Below are positions 7,305 to 34,692 of a stretch of DNA of 64,000 nt, in pieces (the first letter of the stretch is position 1; each line of letters starts with the position of its first letter). Under the pieces are notes generated by a model that was not told where the DNA came from, did not search any database, and saw only the letters and a program-made list of their open reading frames with translations. The position numbers and the translations under genes were made by a program. The stretch comes from Rhizosphaericola mali. Its GTDB lineage: Bacteria; Bacteroidota; Bacteroidia; Chitinophagales; Chitinophagaceae. The stretch is taken from contig NZ_CP044016.1 in assembly GCF_004337365.2 (NCBI RefSeq), positions 4,569,507 through 4,633,506 on the forward strand, written 5' to 3'.

Positions 7305-7811
7305 ATGGAAGAGAACAACAAAATTCTGACGAAAGAGGAAGCATTGGAAAAAATGCACCGCATGGCATTGGAAATTGCTGAAAGTATCGAAGATGAAAAA
7401 TCACTTTTGTTTATCGGTATCAAAAATAGTGGAATGGTTATTGCGTCCAAAATCGCAGAATTTCTGAAAAATTATATTCAAATTCCAATTTCTATAGCTC
7501 AATTAAAATTTGATAAGGAGGATTTGCGCATTTCTAATATTCAACCAGAAATAAATATTACTGATCAAGAAATTATCTTGGTGGATGACGTTAGTAATAG
7601 TGGTCGCACGCTGCTATATGCCTTGAAACCTCTATTAGAATTTTTACCTAAAAAAATACAAACATTGGTAATGGTGGAGCGCATGCATAAAATATATCCT
7701 GTAAAATCTGATTTTGTAGGATTATCTATTGCCACGACTAAAAATGATTTTGTCAAATTATCAATAGAAAAAGAAGAAGTTGTCGGAGCATATATTATTT
7801 CAAATAATTAA
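7305..7811 (+). CDS. PyrR-like phosphoribosyltransferase family protein
   Basis: 168 residues. The PRPP-binding motif IILVDDVSNSGRT lies at residues 90-102 after a Rossmann-like type I phosphoribosyltransferase fold. The overall length and the position of the motif resemble PyrR or hypoxanthine phosphoribosyltransferases. The substrate base cannot be told from the sequence. PyrR in other phyla regulates pyr operons by RNA binding, but there is no pyr gene next to it here and no attenuator that I can see. It is followed after 26 nt by the phosphohexose mutase, probably in one transcript. Confidence 0.75.
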   Translation: MEENNKILTKEEALEKMHRMALEIAESIEDEKSLLFIGIKNSGMVIASKIAEFLKNYIQIPISIAQLKFDKEDLRISNIQPEINITDQEIILVDDVSNSGRTLLYALKPLLEFLPKKIQTLVMVERMHKIYPVKSDFVGLSIATTKNDFVKLSIEKEEVVGAYIISNN

Positions 7812-30217: not shown

Positions 30218-31768
30218 ATGAAATTACCGATAACCAAACAACTACCTTTATTATTACCATTAATCTGTTTGATTATTGGTATATATGTTTCTTCAATTAT
30301 TACGATTCCGATATTTTGGGTGTTGATTTTGCTAGTTTTGGGTTTGGCAATAGCGGCGATAAGTAATATTGCTATTTCTGTACTTAAATTTCCACTATTC
30401 AAAAATCTACTTTTTCTTATCGGGATATTATTGTGTTTTATAGCTCTTGGTTTTATTTCTAGGGAAAAATATCAACTATCAAAGTATCTAAATACAAATA
30501 TTCCGCTTAAAAATTGCGAAATAATCTTACAGGAAAATGCCATCAAAACGACCAAATACTACCGTGCAAAAGCTTACTTAAGCTCCAAAGAAACTCCGAT
30601 TTTAATTTACCTCAATAAAGATTTACGTAAAGGAGATACAATCATAACTTCTCAATTAAAAATAAGAACGATTGCAAATTTTAATTCGGAATATGATATT
30701 AAGACGTTTTATAACCGACAAGGCTATTTCTACAATGTATTTATAGATGTTAATCATTGTAATATTTATCCGAAAAAATTGAATTTATTTGAGAGACTTA
30801 TTTCTTTTATGCGGAATAATATTCTCGCCACATATTCTGAAACTTTAAATGATAGTTTGGATGTAGGATTGTCTATGGCATTGATTTTAGGGGAAACTTC
30901 CTTATTGGAGCCGAAAATCTATCAAGCGTATATCAATACAGGGACAGTACATGTAATTGCCGTGAGTGGAATGCATTTGACTTTATTATTTGGATTTTTG
31001 GAAATAATATTAGGACGGATTCCAATTGTAAAGTATAAGAAAGGTATTCGTTTTTCTATTGTCTTGCTTTTCATTTGGCTATTTACTTTTTTGGTGGGAA
31101 TGGGGCCTTCGATTTTAAGAGCGGCTGTTATGTTAACATTTTCCTTAATTGGCAATTTGCTTGGTCGACGCAATGGAGCCTTAAATGGTTTGCTATTCTC
31201 CGCATTTATTTTGTTGCTTATTGATCCTAATTGGTTGTGGAACATTGGATTTCTTTTGTCTTACAGTTCGCTCGTCGGTATTTTATTATGGTCGCCGATT
31301 TTGGAAAAATGGTTGAAAGTTGAAAATCCCATTTTACAATTTTTCATGAAAATGATTGCGATAACCCTCGCTGCACAATTAGGAACCATCCCGATTGTAT
31401 TGTACTGTTTTCATCAATTTCCCATTTGGTTTTTATTTTTCAATATTTGGATGGTGCCTTTATCATCCGTCGGGATATTTCTACTTTTAAGCATATTACT
31501 ATTTTCCAAAATTCCAATTATTTCCGATGCTATTATATTTTTCTCCAAATATGTGCTCCAATGGATGAATTGGTTGGCTATTTATTCCAATGATTTGCCA
31601 ATTTCAGTTTGGAAATTAAAGATCAATTGGGAACAAGCAATTGTTTTGTATGGAATAATCGGTTTGAGTTATTGTATGGTCATTTTTAGAAAAAAGATAT
31701 ATTTCTGGTATTTGACATTGCTGATTTTTGTATTTATTTTAAATGAATGCTTATTCTTTTCAAAATAG
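30218..31768 (+). CDS. ComEC/Rec2-family competence membrane protein, short form
   Basis: 516 residues with about ten membrane helices. The N-terminal two helices and following soluble part (about 70-185) match the DUF4131 region. The competence core starts near residue 225 with VIAVSGMHLTLLFGF, the family signature, followed by FLVGMGPSILRAAVM. ComEC forms the inner-membrane channel for single-stranded DNA during natural transformation. The C-terminal metallo-beta-lactamase-like nuclease domain of many ComEC proteins is absent; the protein ends shortly after the last helix. It is the gene after the rpsG terminator. Confidence 0.88.
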   Translation: MKLPITKQLPLLLPLICLIIGIYVSSIITIPIFWVLILLVLGLAIAAISNIAISVLKFPLFKNLLFLIGILLCFIALGFISREKYQLSKYLNTNIPLKNCEIILQENAIKTTKYYRAKAYLSSKETPILIYLNKDLRKGDTIITSQLKIRTIANFNSEYDIKTFYNRQGYFYNVFIDVNHCNIYPKKLNLFERLISFMRNNILATYSETLNDSLDVGLSMALILGETSLLEPKIYQAYINTGTVHVIAVSGMHLTLLFGFLEIILGRIPIVKYKKGIRFSIVLLFIWLFTFLVGMGPSILRAAVMLTFSLIGNLLGRRNGALNGLLFSAFILLLIDPNWLWNIGFLLSYSSLVGILLWSPILEKWLKVENPILQFFMKMIAITLAAQLGTIPIVLYCFHQFPIWFLFFNIWMVPLSSVGIFLLLSILLFSKIPIISDAIIFFSKYVLQWMNWLAIYSNDLPISVWKLKINWEQAIVLYGIIGLSYCMVIFRKKIYFWYLTLLIFVFILNECLFFSK

Positions 31769-31833: not shown

Positions 31834-31896
31834 CATCCTCAATTAACTGAAAAACATGTATAAAATGAGATGTTTTTCAATACAAATAATTTCAGA

Positions 31897-33411
31897 ATGC
31901 AAAAGAAAATCAAATCAGCATTAATTTCCGTTTTTTACAAAGATGGTTTGGAACCGATTGTAAAAGAGTTGGATCGTCTAGGTGTAACGATTTATTCTAC
32001 TGGCGGTACACAGAAATTTATTGAAAATCTAGGTATAAAATGTATTCCTGTTGAGGACTTGACAACTTACCCATCCATCCTTGGTGGCCGTGTTAAGATC
32101 CTTCATCCTGCCGTTTTTGGGGGTATCTTGGGACGTCGTGATTTGGAAGAGGATCGTGCAGAAATGGCGAAATACAATATTCCTGAGATCGATTTGGTGA
32201 TCATTGATTTGTATCCTTTCGAAGAAACTTTGAAAAGTACAGATGATGAAGCTGCAATTATTGAAAAAATTGATATTGGTGGTCCTTCTGCCATTCGTGC
32301 TGCTGCGAAAAATTTCAAAGATGAAGTCGTATTAGCTTCTCGAGATGAATATACTTGGTTATTGAAAGTGTTGCAAGAGCAAGATGGGGAAACTTCTTTG
32401 GAAGAAAGAAAAGCGTTCGCTGCAAAATCATTTGAAGTAGTAATGAACTATGATATAGCCATTAATAACTTTTTCAACGGAACGATTCTTCAACCATTAA
32501 CCAATAAAAAAGTATTGCGTTATGGGGAAAATCCAGATCAAAAAGCCGCATTCTATGGTGATTTGGATGAGGATTTTGAAAAATTAAACGGAAAAGAACT
32601 TTCTTATAATAATTTAGTAGATGTTGATTCTGCAATGGCATTGATCAAAGATTTCAAAGACGAAAAAGATGTCGTTTTTGGAATTATAAAACATACCAAT
32701 GTCTGTGGTGTTGCGGTTCGTCCAACAGTGAAAGAAGCCTATGACGCAGCAGATGCGGGAGATCCAGAAAGTGCTTTTGGTGGTATCTTGATTTGCTCTG
32801 GTACAATTGATAAAGTTACTGCGGAGAAAATACAAGAAGTTTTCTTTGAAGTATTGATCGCAGCGGATTTCGATGCGGATGCATTGGACGTATTGAAAGC
32901 AAAGAAAAACCGTATCTTATTAAAATTAAAACCAAACAATAAAGAGAATAACGTACAATTCAAATCTGTTTTGAATGGCGTTTTGGTTCAAGATACGGAT
33001 CAAGGTAATTATACAGAATGGAAAGAAGTGGGTGGACGCGAAACAACTGCGGAAGAAAAAGCAGCGCTTTCATTTGCCAATATTATCTGTAAACATTTGA
33101 AATCCAATGCAATTGCGCTTGTAAAAGATCGTCAATTGATCGGAAAAGGTTGTGGACAGACAAGCCGTGTAGATGCGTTGCGTCAGGCAATTGCCAAAGC
33201 AGAACAATTTAATTTTGATTTGAAAGATGCTGTTTTAGCTTCTGATGCATTTTTCCCATTTAATGACTGTGTGAAATTAGCGCACGAAGCGGGCATTACT
33301 TCTTTCATTCAACCCGGAGGTTCTATCAGAGATAAAGATAGTATTGAATATTGCGTAGAAAATAATTTACCCATGGTATTAACTGGAAAACGTCATTTCC
33401 GCCACGGATAA
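31897..33411 (+). CDS. purH: Bifunctional AICAR transformylase/IMP cyclohydrolase
   Basis: 504 residues. I chose ATG 31897 because MQKKIKSALISVFYKDGLEPIV is the conserved PurH N-terminus; a frame opening at 31870 adds nine residues with no match. IMP cyclohydrolase domain (about 1-190): STGGTQKFIENLG and HPAVFGGILGRRD. Transformylase domain: LRYGENPDQKAAFYG, KHTNVCGVAV, the ESAFGGIL loop, and the C-terminal [12 protein letters not shown] and GKRHFRHG. It performs the last two steps of IMP synthesis. A diverged second copy of the last 132 bases lies at 34505-34636, beyond the Mrr gene. Confidence 0.97.
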   Translation: MQKKIKSALISVFYKDGLEPIVKELDRLGVTIYSTGGTQKFIENLGIKCIPVEDLTTYPSILGGRVKILHPAVFGGILGRRDLEEDRAEMAKYNIPEIDLVIIDLYPFEETLKSTDDEAAIIEKIDIGGPSAIRAAAKNFKDEVVLASRDEYTWLLKVLQEQDGETSLEERKAFAAKSFEVVMNYDIAINNFFNGTILQPLTNKKVLRYGENPDQKAAFYGDLDEDFEKLNGKELSYNNLVDVDSAMALIKDFKDEKDVVFGIIKHTNVCGVAVRPTVKEAYDAADAGDPESAFGGILICSGTIDKVTAEKIQEVFFEVLIAADFDADALDVLKAKKNRILLKLKPNNKENNVQFKSVLNGVLVQDTDQGNYTEWKEVGGRETTAEEKAALSFANIICKHLKSNAIALVKDRQLIGKGCGQTSRVDALRQAIAKAEQFNFDLKDAVLASDAFFPFNDCVKLAHEAGITSFIQPGGSIRDKDSIEYCVENNLPMVLTGKRHFRHG

Positions 33412-33420
33412 GTCTTATTT

Positions 33421-33453
33421 ATTCCTAGTGAGCAATGCTCATTAGGAATTTTT
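33421..33453 (+). terminator. Terminator of purH
   Basis: ATTCCTAGTGAGC (33421-33433) pairs with GCTCATTAGGAAT (33437-33449), one G-U, then T5. The in-frame ATG at 33435 of the next gene lies in its loop, which argues against that start. Confidence 0.85.
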
Positions 33454-33476
33454 ATTTATACTATAATCAATGGTTA

Positions 33477-34367
33477 ATGGCTCATTTCTATTTAGATGCA
33501 GAAACATCATTAAATCCCATTTTTTCAGACTTTTTTTTTGATTTCCCAAAACAAAATCCAGTTCTTGAATTATACAACCAAACAATTCAGAAAAGCAATC
33601 TAAGAGAAAATCTACAAGATAATTTTGGCTTGATTAAAAAATTAGGGACTGTTGATACTATACTTGCTAATAAAATTCTTTTATATGATATTCAAAAGAA
33701 TTTTAAAAACCATATAAAAGACTATCAGAAAACAATTGGAAAATCTCCTATACTCAATACGTTATCAATCCGTTCTAATAAAAGTACGAAAGCACCTTCT
33801 TATATTAATGTAGCAAAGAACGAAGTCAATTCAACCGAAATTCAATACAACTTAGAAAATATTTTGGATGATATTGAAGGTTCGGTTAGTCAAGATTTAT
33901 TTAAAGAAATTATTTTTTCCGAAACTCAAAGAGTAAAAAAGGTAATCTCTGATATTTATTTCAACAATCAGGATTTATATAATCTAAATCCTAGAGACTT
34001 TGAAATAATGATTGCAGAGCTATTATCTTCTCAAGGTTTTGATGTTGAACTTACACAGCAAACAAGAGATGGAGGTAAAGACATAATTGCAATCAAGCCG
34101 CAGGGACCTCTATTAAGACCAATAAAGTATCTAGTAGAGTGTAAGAAGTACGCCGAAACAAATAAAGTTGATGTTCAAATTATGAGATCATTTAGTTATG
34201 TTGTCCAGCAAAGTGCTAATAAGGGAATATTAGTAACAACTTCATATTTTACAAAAGATGTCCAAAAACAACATGATCCACAACTTTTAGATTTGATAGA
34301 CAAAAATGCACTTCTTCAATGGATTCATATTTATATATTGCAACTGAAAGGTATTCTTGCTATTTAA
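33477..34367 (+). CDS. Mrr-like restriction endonuclease-fold protein
   Basis: 296 residues from ATG 33477; the earlier ATG at 33435 lies in the purH terminator loop. The C-terminal 110 residues are an Mrr_cat domain with the PD-(D/E)XK core: FEIMIAELLSSQGF with the first Glu, GGKD with the Asp, and VECKKY with E-x-K. The N-terminal 170 residues have no recognised DNA-binding fold and are rich in Asn, Lys and Ile. Mrr-type nucleases cut methylated or foreign DNA; no methyltransferase or specificity gene is adjacent, so a solitary type IV-like enzyme is the best guess. The position between two purH 3' ends marks it as acquired. Confidence 0.82.
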   Translation: MAHFYLDAETSLNPIFSDFFFDFPKQNPVLELYNQTIQKSNLRENLQDNFGLIKKLGTVDTILANKILLYDIQKNFKNHIKDYQKTIGKSPILNTLSIRSNKSTKAPSYINVAKNEVNSTEIQYNLENILDDIEGSVSQDLFKEIIFSETQRVKKVISDIYFNNQDLYNLNPRDFEIMIAELLSSQGFDVELTQQTRDGGKDIIAIKPQGPLLRPIKYLVECKKYAETNKVDVQIMRSFSYVVQQSANKGILVTTSYFTKDVQKQHDPQLLDLIDKNALLQWIHIYILQLKGILAI

Positions 34368-34388
34368 TATCCAACTGAGAATAATAAC

Positions 34389-34420
34389 AAAAAAGCCTTC
34401 GAAATTTCGGAGGCTTTTTT
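34389..34420 (+). terminator. Terminator of the Mrr-like gene
   Basis: AAAAAAGCCTTCGAAA pairs with TTTCGGAGGCTTTTTT, with one G-U and a tight turn. Near-perfect 16-bp inverted repeat. Confidence 0.85.
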
Positions 34421-34501
34421 GTTAACTTTTTATTATCAATGCAACAATCCCATTTGTAGGTGTAAAGAGGGATTTTTGCGAACAAATTTTTTCAAGGTCT
34501 T

Positions 34502-34636
34502 TATGCACACAAGAAAGGAATCAAATCGTTTATCCAACCCGGCGGTTCCATCCGTGACAAAGATATTATTGACTACGCAGTAGAAAACAAGCTAGCTATG
34601 GGCATCACCGATAAAAGACATTTCAGACACGGATAA
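34502..34636 (+). pseudogene. Remnant of a second purH 3' end
   Basis: Translates to 43 residues starting [14 protein letters not shown] and ending KRHFRHG-stop. By hand alignment 32 of 43 residues equal the C-terminus of the intact PurH, with no gap; the 132 bases match 33280-33411 in length. Both copies also share TCTTATTT just after the stop. Third positions use more C than the intact gene. The rest of PurH is missing upstream, so it cannot be functional. It looks like the displaced end of an earlier purH, or flanking DNA carried in with the Mrr gene. Confidence 0.88.
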
Positions 34637-34655
34637 TATCTTATTTGAATACGTG

Positions 34656-34692
34656 AAAACTCCCAACAATTCAATTGTTGGGAGTTTTTATT
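34656..34692. terminator. Bidirectional terminator after the purH remnant
   Basis: AAAACTCCCAACAA (34656-34669), loop TTCAA, TTGTTGGGAGTTTT (34675-34688). A and T runs flank it. It serves the PAP2 gene on the minus strand and may be the original purH terminator. Confidence 0.88.

Follow-up and report, generated by a model that had tools for sequence, protein, structure and literature searches.

The purH locus of Rhizosphaericola mali (G000, the genome under study) carries a real, well-preserved scar of gene-end replacement, by which a probable defence gene seems to have come in. In the window (the whole stretch of DNA that was analysed, 64,000 nucleotides), two diverged purH 3′-ends lie with a nuclease gene as cargo between them, and the orphan end behind the cargo is the congener-like one. 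This orphan is probably the native purH end, displaced downstream of the cargo, while the working gene would carry an incoming end; the comparisons below support a foreign origin of the incoming end and the cargo. Events of this kind are known, but purH is an unusual gene for one; one-sided homologous plus one-sided illegitimate recombination (homology-facilitated illegitimate recombination, HFIR) is the route that we favour with moderate confidence.

The locus lies on a chromosome of 4.67 Mb in a whole genome of 4.70 Mb (two contigs). Its order, 5′ to 3′, is a comEC-like gene, purH, a terminator, the Mrr-type nuclease gene, a terminator, the orphan purH 3′-end and a further terminator (Table 1); the terminator scan found 3 terminators in the region vs. 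0.8 expected. The comEC-like gene (window 30218–31768; called by Pfam in the window and by 30–36% identity in relatives) is directly 5′ of purH here and in 9 of 9 relatives covering that side, including G001, the sole congener compared (a draft, 81% complete). Because this neighbour is general among the relatives examined, it is uninformative on the entry route. When lengths were compared at the window locus and at L143, L144, and L146–L151, the comEC-like gene was 515–516 codons in G000 and G001 vs. 691–697 in seven other relatives, and it was split in L145; judged by these frames, the shorter form is that of this genus.

Table 1. Features of the purH locus in the window and of the second case in another family.
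Feature	Position	Strand	Evidence
purH, working gene	31870–33411	+	513 codons + stop
purH codons 1–371, native part	31870..32982	+	SH-aLRT 100 with G001 for codons 9–371; 24/47 congener-rare residues common
purH codons 372–513 + stop, probable incoming 3′ part	32983..33411	+	0/14 congener-rare residues, codons 372–506
Terminator of working purH	33421..33449	+	terminator scan
Mrr-type nuclease gene (predicted), cargo	33477..34367	+	PF04471 84.1 bits; PADLOC PDC-S02 E 9.4e-16
Terminator 3′ of nuclease gene	34385..34424	+	terminator scan
About 80 bases between nuclease terminator and far junction	34425..34504	.	no feature assigned
Orphan purH 3′-end, probably displaced native end	34505..34636	+	37/43 residues to G001; SH-aLRT 96
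Terminator 3′ of orphan end, probably native purH terminator	34653..34691	+	terminator scan; native origin from context
G301 purH and orphan end	L181 (G301:C19:303500-318500), 931–2457 and 7674–7800

Aligned over 132 bases (33280–33411 vs. 34505–34636), the working and the orphan end share 92 bases and 32 of 43 residues, stop excluded, the coordinates and the residue count being those given in the sequence-only reading of this DNA. The 40 differing bases fall at third (25), first (9) and second (6) codon positions, a pattern as would be expected for a diverged coding end. That reading had named chance similarity as a possible refutation; the local alignment score was 56, whereas 300 mononucleotide shuffles reached 16 at most, which argues otherwise. 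Both ends carry the terminus KRHFRHG, and the similarity indeed reaches past the stop codons, since TCTTATTT is present after both of them, offset by one base. The longest identical stretch between the two ends is 9 bases, at the stop codon; the orphan start is not identical, and upstream of the far junction near 34504 windows match purH at only 2–9 of 20 bases. In the whole genome, no purH match at E ≤ 0.001 was found beyond these two places. The nuclease gene and its terminator do lie between the copies, as had been described, but not only these, because the purH terminator and about 80 further bases lie there too.

To compare the ends within the family (Chitinophagaceae), 114 purH loci were reduced to 78 distinct proteins; L076, L077, L092, and L098, which are incomplete, were omitted from the trees and the neighbour-rank check. 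Of 43 residues, the orphan end shares 37 with purH of G001 and the working end 33; of 129 bases, they share 100 and 86, respectively. The next best of the 78 family sequences matched the orphan at no more than 32 of 43 residues. D506 was found in the orphan and G001 and was absent from the other 77 family sequences. Consistently, in a tree of both 3′-ends, a check suggested by the sequence-only reading, the orphan grouped with G001 (SH-aLRT 96), and on a fixed backbone with 145 possible places its position at G001 was 10.6 log units better than the runner-up (p-AU 0.12 for the latter). A native end displaced behind cargo, as in an HFIR scar, is what these values (37/43 residues, SH-aLRT 96) point to. 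It is also probable that foreign purH DNA was involved, as had been claimed, through recombination rather than a plain tandem duplication. At two positions the orphan departs from the family, as an unused end in decay would be expected to: it has I491 (S in 77 of 78 sequences) and G503 (V in 72, I in 6). Because its frame remains open over 56 codons, the displacement should be younger than the split from G001.

Another explanation would be that part of purH was duplicated in tandem long ago and that the nuclease gene was inserted there afterwards, and both the KRHFRHG terminus and TCTTATTT on each end fit such an origin. This we consider extremely unlikely, as the 25 of 40 differences at third positions would mean that both copies diverged largely under selection, unlike an orphan end, and as the orphan is nearer to another species (37/43) than to its neighbour (32/43).

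The working purH itself appears mosaic. Congener-rare residues were defined as those present in under 20% of family sequences yet present in G001, and were counted up to codon 506; purH of G001 is split over two contigs, with sequence missing for about codons 141–248. The working gene had 24 of 47 such residues in common with G001 before codon 372, while it had none of 14 in codons 372–506. The best split was at codon 372, with p 0.00036 for that split and a permutation p of 0.0025 allowing for the choice of split. Codons 372–469, which are upstream of the orphan start, already had 0 of 11 (p 0.0016). Varying the rarity cut-off between 0.05 and 0.3 left the contrast in place (p from 0.035 to 0.00009), the right-hand count being 1 of 19 at 0.3. 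K507, beyond the counted range, was found in both ends and G001 and in no other family sequence, and the right-hand count with K507 is 1 of 15; the final G is common to both ends, G001 and one other sequence, L150. In the trees, codons 9–371 of the working gene grouped with G001 (Table 1), and codons 249–371 were placed with it by 45 log units.

As a control, 8 other family sequences with a clearly leading nearest neighbour in codons 249–371 were used, and that neighbour was re-ranked further 3′. In codons 382–513 the 8 ranks were 1, 1, 1, 1, 1, 1, 3, and 10, vs. 26 of 74 for the G000–G001 pair. Codons 405–513 gave a rank of 20 both for the pair and for one of the 8, and the last 43 codons put one of the 8 at 52 vs. 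25 for the pair; when the demand for a clear lead was dropped, ranks up to 69–73 occurred among all 48 others. A sister relationship of the working gene and G001 was not rejected by clade tests (p-AU 0.61 for codons 372–513 and 0.64 for the last 43), the constrained trees having outscored the quick free ones. On the fixed backbone, the place at G001 trailed the best one by 2.4 log units for codons 372–513, by 2.9 for the end and by 26.9 for codons 405–513. Because placement log-likelihoods of overlapping stretches do not add up, the argument for a chimera rests mainly on the shared rare residues. These results support, but do not prove, that the working purH is chimeric, native to codon 371 and incoming from codon 372, with the breakpoint near codon 372.

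Alternatively, the working purH would be wholly native and the downstream end foreign, having arrived with the nuclease from a G001-like relative and been joined behind the native gene. K507 common to the working end and G001, TCTTATTT behind both stops and the clade tests, which allow the working 3′ part with G001, agree with that explanation; we judge it unlikely, since the orphan and not the working end is congener-like, the likeness of the working gene to G001 is lost after codon 371, and beside purH of G001 there are neither the nuclease nor the genes that stand behind the orphan. G001 has one purH end, no nuclease match and different genes behind purH. The comparison with relatives that the sequence-only reading called for thus gives a single end without the nuclease in the sole congener compared, so that vertical descent of the same arrangement, its refuting case, is not what G001 presents. 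The gene directly behind purH in G001 (L142 11188–11808, G001:C3) is an unrelated 206-residue ORF, for which Pfam, PADLOC and NCBIfam gave no match. The PAP2 gene behind the orphan in G000 finds no close counterpart in G001, where its best match is 41% over 94 residues. Even with the nuclease left aside, then, what stands behind purH is not alike in the two species, which limits G001 as a guide to the empty site.

The cargo encodes a predicted Mrr-type nuclease, for which the family makes a defence role likely; an enzyme of this type would cut modified DNA or protect against phage. Its protein matched Mrr_cat (PF04471) at 84.1 bits vs. a cut-off of 21, with the domain C-terminal, and the PADLOC model PDC-S02 at E 9.4e-16, with weaker matches to the mREase_II, mREase_IV, and ZorD models. 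The motifs DGGKD (34068–34082) and ECKK (34137–34148) are present, which we take to be the catalytic motifs; an Mrr_cat match above the curated cut-off together with a D and an ExK motif is the profile of an Mrr-type restriction endonuclease. The protein is thus like the Mrr-type restriction endonucleases (PF04471; PADLOC PDC-S02) in its C-terminal Mrr_cat, DGGKD and ECKK, and unlike them in its N-terminal part, about 160–180 residues without a Pfam match at E 0.001. NCBIfam gave no match, and no solved relative was found by sequence at E 0.01. The ATG at 33477 is the likelier start, because the listed ORF start at 33435 falls inside the purH terminator hairpin. The gene has a G+C content of 28.8% vs. 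34.9% for the window. Nuclease matches were found in 44 of 294 genomes of the family sample, G000 included, with the best relative outside G000 at 48% over 171 residues; 70 plasmid and 3 phage records also matched the protein, all at <60% identity and none covering 80%.

From these results, we infer the route of entry, the order of the joins, the donor, and the function of the nuclease. In the HFIR route, a fragment from another bacterium of the family would have entered, consisting of a purH 3′ part, its terminator and the nuclease gene, and would have aligned with the gene already there. Crossing over by homology near codon 372 would have given the working purH a complete incoming 3′-end, so that it stayed whole, while the far side would have been joined illegitimately to the resident purH at about codon 470, a kind of join in which a few bases of microhomology are often seen. 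The last 132 bases of the native purH and their terminator would thereby have been stranded behind the cargo, decaying there. As K507 and the final G are in both ends and in G001, the donor should be a relative with such a terminus. The donor of the incoming part was not found, the best matches being 79–80%; a search of plasmid DNA gave no match, and 49 purH loci in the genome contig collection gave a best match of 74%, none of them from a congener. That K507 demands a donor sharing it, that G001 is the sole congener and that no donor was found are points against HFIR.

Entry by recombination or by a site-specific element had been left side by side in the sequence-only reading, and the first of these is what the evidence favours. 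On the site-specific reading, an element would have entered the 3′-end of purH and brought a substitute for it, and the nuclease would have stayed behind once the integrase had been lost. The succession of gene, cargo and displaced end is indeed the architecture of islands in gene 3′-ends, but no integrase lies between the ends in G000 or, as far as small ORFs without a Pfam match were examined, in G301 (a second case, see below), and a search of G000 for tyrosine integrases (PF00589; tyrosine family only) put the nearest about 250 kb away. The 9-base identity at the stop codon also falls short of an identical core at both ends. Further, site-specific rebuilding would have the incoming sequence begin at about codon 470, whereas it seems to start about 100 codons before the orphan start, codons 372–469 already having 0 of 11 congener-rare residues. 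HFIR is favoured over a site-specific integrase because of this upstream breakpoint, the lack of a long identical stretch and the lack of a nearby integrase, and the site-specific explanation appears quite unlikely. The G000 chromosome outside the window has 24 tyrosine-integrase matches in 4.7 Mb, several of them close opposite-strand pairs (e.g., near 1.15, 1.99, 2.07, and 2.18 Mb). Genomic islands integrate in protein genes, e.g., dusA, the dusA islands being at the 5′-end. The purH locus resembles these in having cargo beside a conserved gene whose end is rebuilt or kept, and differs in having no integrase, no core repeat and a breakpoint inside the gene away from the remnant start.

A genuine, independent second orphan purH end was found in G301, which belongs to another family of the same order (Table 1). 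Its distance from purH is 5.2 kb. Over their last 117 bases the two ends differ at 20 positions, of which 15 are third codon positions, and they share 17 identical bases, which would suit a site-specific element. The genes enclosed are on the opposite strand: some match ECF sigma factor, DUF4097, TM2, and DUF2752 domains, and others have no Pfam match. The remnant lengths, including the stop, are nearly equal at 127 bases in G301 and 132 in G000, so that the starts agree within about 5 bases; this also speaks for a site-specific element, and it counts against HFIR, as a random join does not predict similar junction lengths. The near-equal lengths are one hint of a preferred site, and a detection floor of about 35–40 codons may be a plain alternative. 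As two families show independent displaced ends of near-equal length, with unrelated cargo and no integrase found, the place about 125–132 bases before the stop-codon end of purH might be a preferred junction in an undescribed mode of cargo insertion in Bacteroidota, which we regard as very unlikely.

The sequence-only reading had further proposed purH as a recurrent entry point for defence cargo; with one other genuine orphan, enclosing non-defence genes, purH as a general entry point is not supported. Overlapping samples of 294 family, 396 order and 395 class genomes were searched, from which strongly diverged remnants may escape the queries. In the family sample, 279 genomes matched the purH end and only G000 had two ends. 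In the order sample, 380 genomes matched; multiple matches were seen in G000 and in three others (G493, G377, and G301), of which only G301 is genuine. In the class sample, 367 matched and three others had two matches (G773, G887, and G695), none of which was a genuine further orphan end. When the own end of each locus was sought downstream at 90 loci (298 kb), only G000, G301, G493, and one 13-base match were recovered. The rejected candidates were as follows: the second end of G493, at 97% over the last 72 bases, is beside an N run with the same simple repeats behind it and was taken as a scaffolding artefact; G377 has purH split over two contig ends and a weak third match (E 9.4e-4) inside another frame; the second matches in G773 and G887 are at or beside contig ends, and that in G695 is within a 411-codon frame and is no orphan. 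G001, G060, G074, G128, G135, and G199 had two matches to whole purH yet one end each (in G001, the split over two contigs).

On viral contigs, 54 loci had a purH end, 49 in complete frames of 314–346 codons and 5 cut by contig edges, and none was an orphan, which also argues against a site-specific element. These viral purH-like frames (L188–L241) are about 315–346 codons vs. 513 in the bacterial gene, and are probably the transformylase part only. For background, 695 open frames, each 150 codons or longer and spurious frames among them, were scanned at 63 loci covering 807 kb, a rate biased by the choice of loci for purH. An orphan qualified if it reached the last residues of its gene and lay downstream on the same strand without overlapping the gene; only purH orphans qualified, namely those in the window, at L181, and at L182. 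The repeats in L041, L042, L058, and L063 did not, by reason of their strand, of an upstream or overlapping position, or of stopping before the gene end. Among the titles listed by a literature search, none was on purH as an integration site, which does not imply absence from print; a mobile-element hot spot in marine cyanobacteria is placed at a tRNA-Met near purH and not in it (PMC2784084).

The HFIR reading has precedents. In Vibrio cholerae, the ends of type VI effector genes are displaced by effector-immunity modules, for which HFIR was proposed and described as rare, and C-terminal displacement in rhs genes is cited (Kirchberger et al., 2017, PMC5361080). The two cases are alike in a shared upstream anchor, a new 3′ part with a downstream gene and an old end shifted downstream. 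They differ in that the gene end itself is the changing toxin in the effectors, whereas purH is a housekeeping anchor that works with its new end as before, and what is gained is the gene behind the anchor. Naturally competent species have been shown to undergo HFIR, and it is also reported, with low efficiency, for conjugation in E. coli (PMC3240628). The likeness to that work is one homologous and one illegitimate join of linear incoming DNA; the difference is that at purH the event is deduced from sequence alone.

The purH case alone opens no long-standing question. From the scar one can read how a probable defence gene can come to sit behind a housekeeping gene with no mobile element involved: the incoming fragment brings its own end, and so the anchor gene stays whole. 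Displaced gene ends of this kind could flag such events genome-wide and reveal the direction of transfer.
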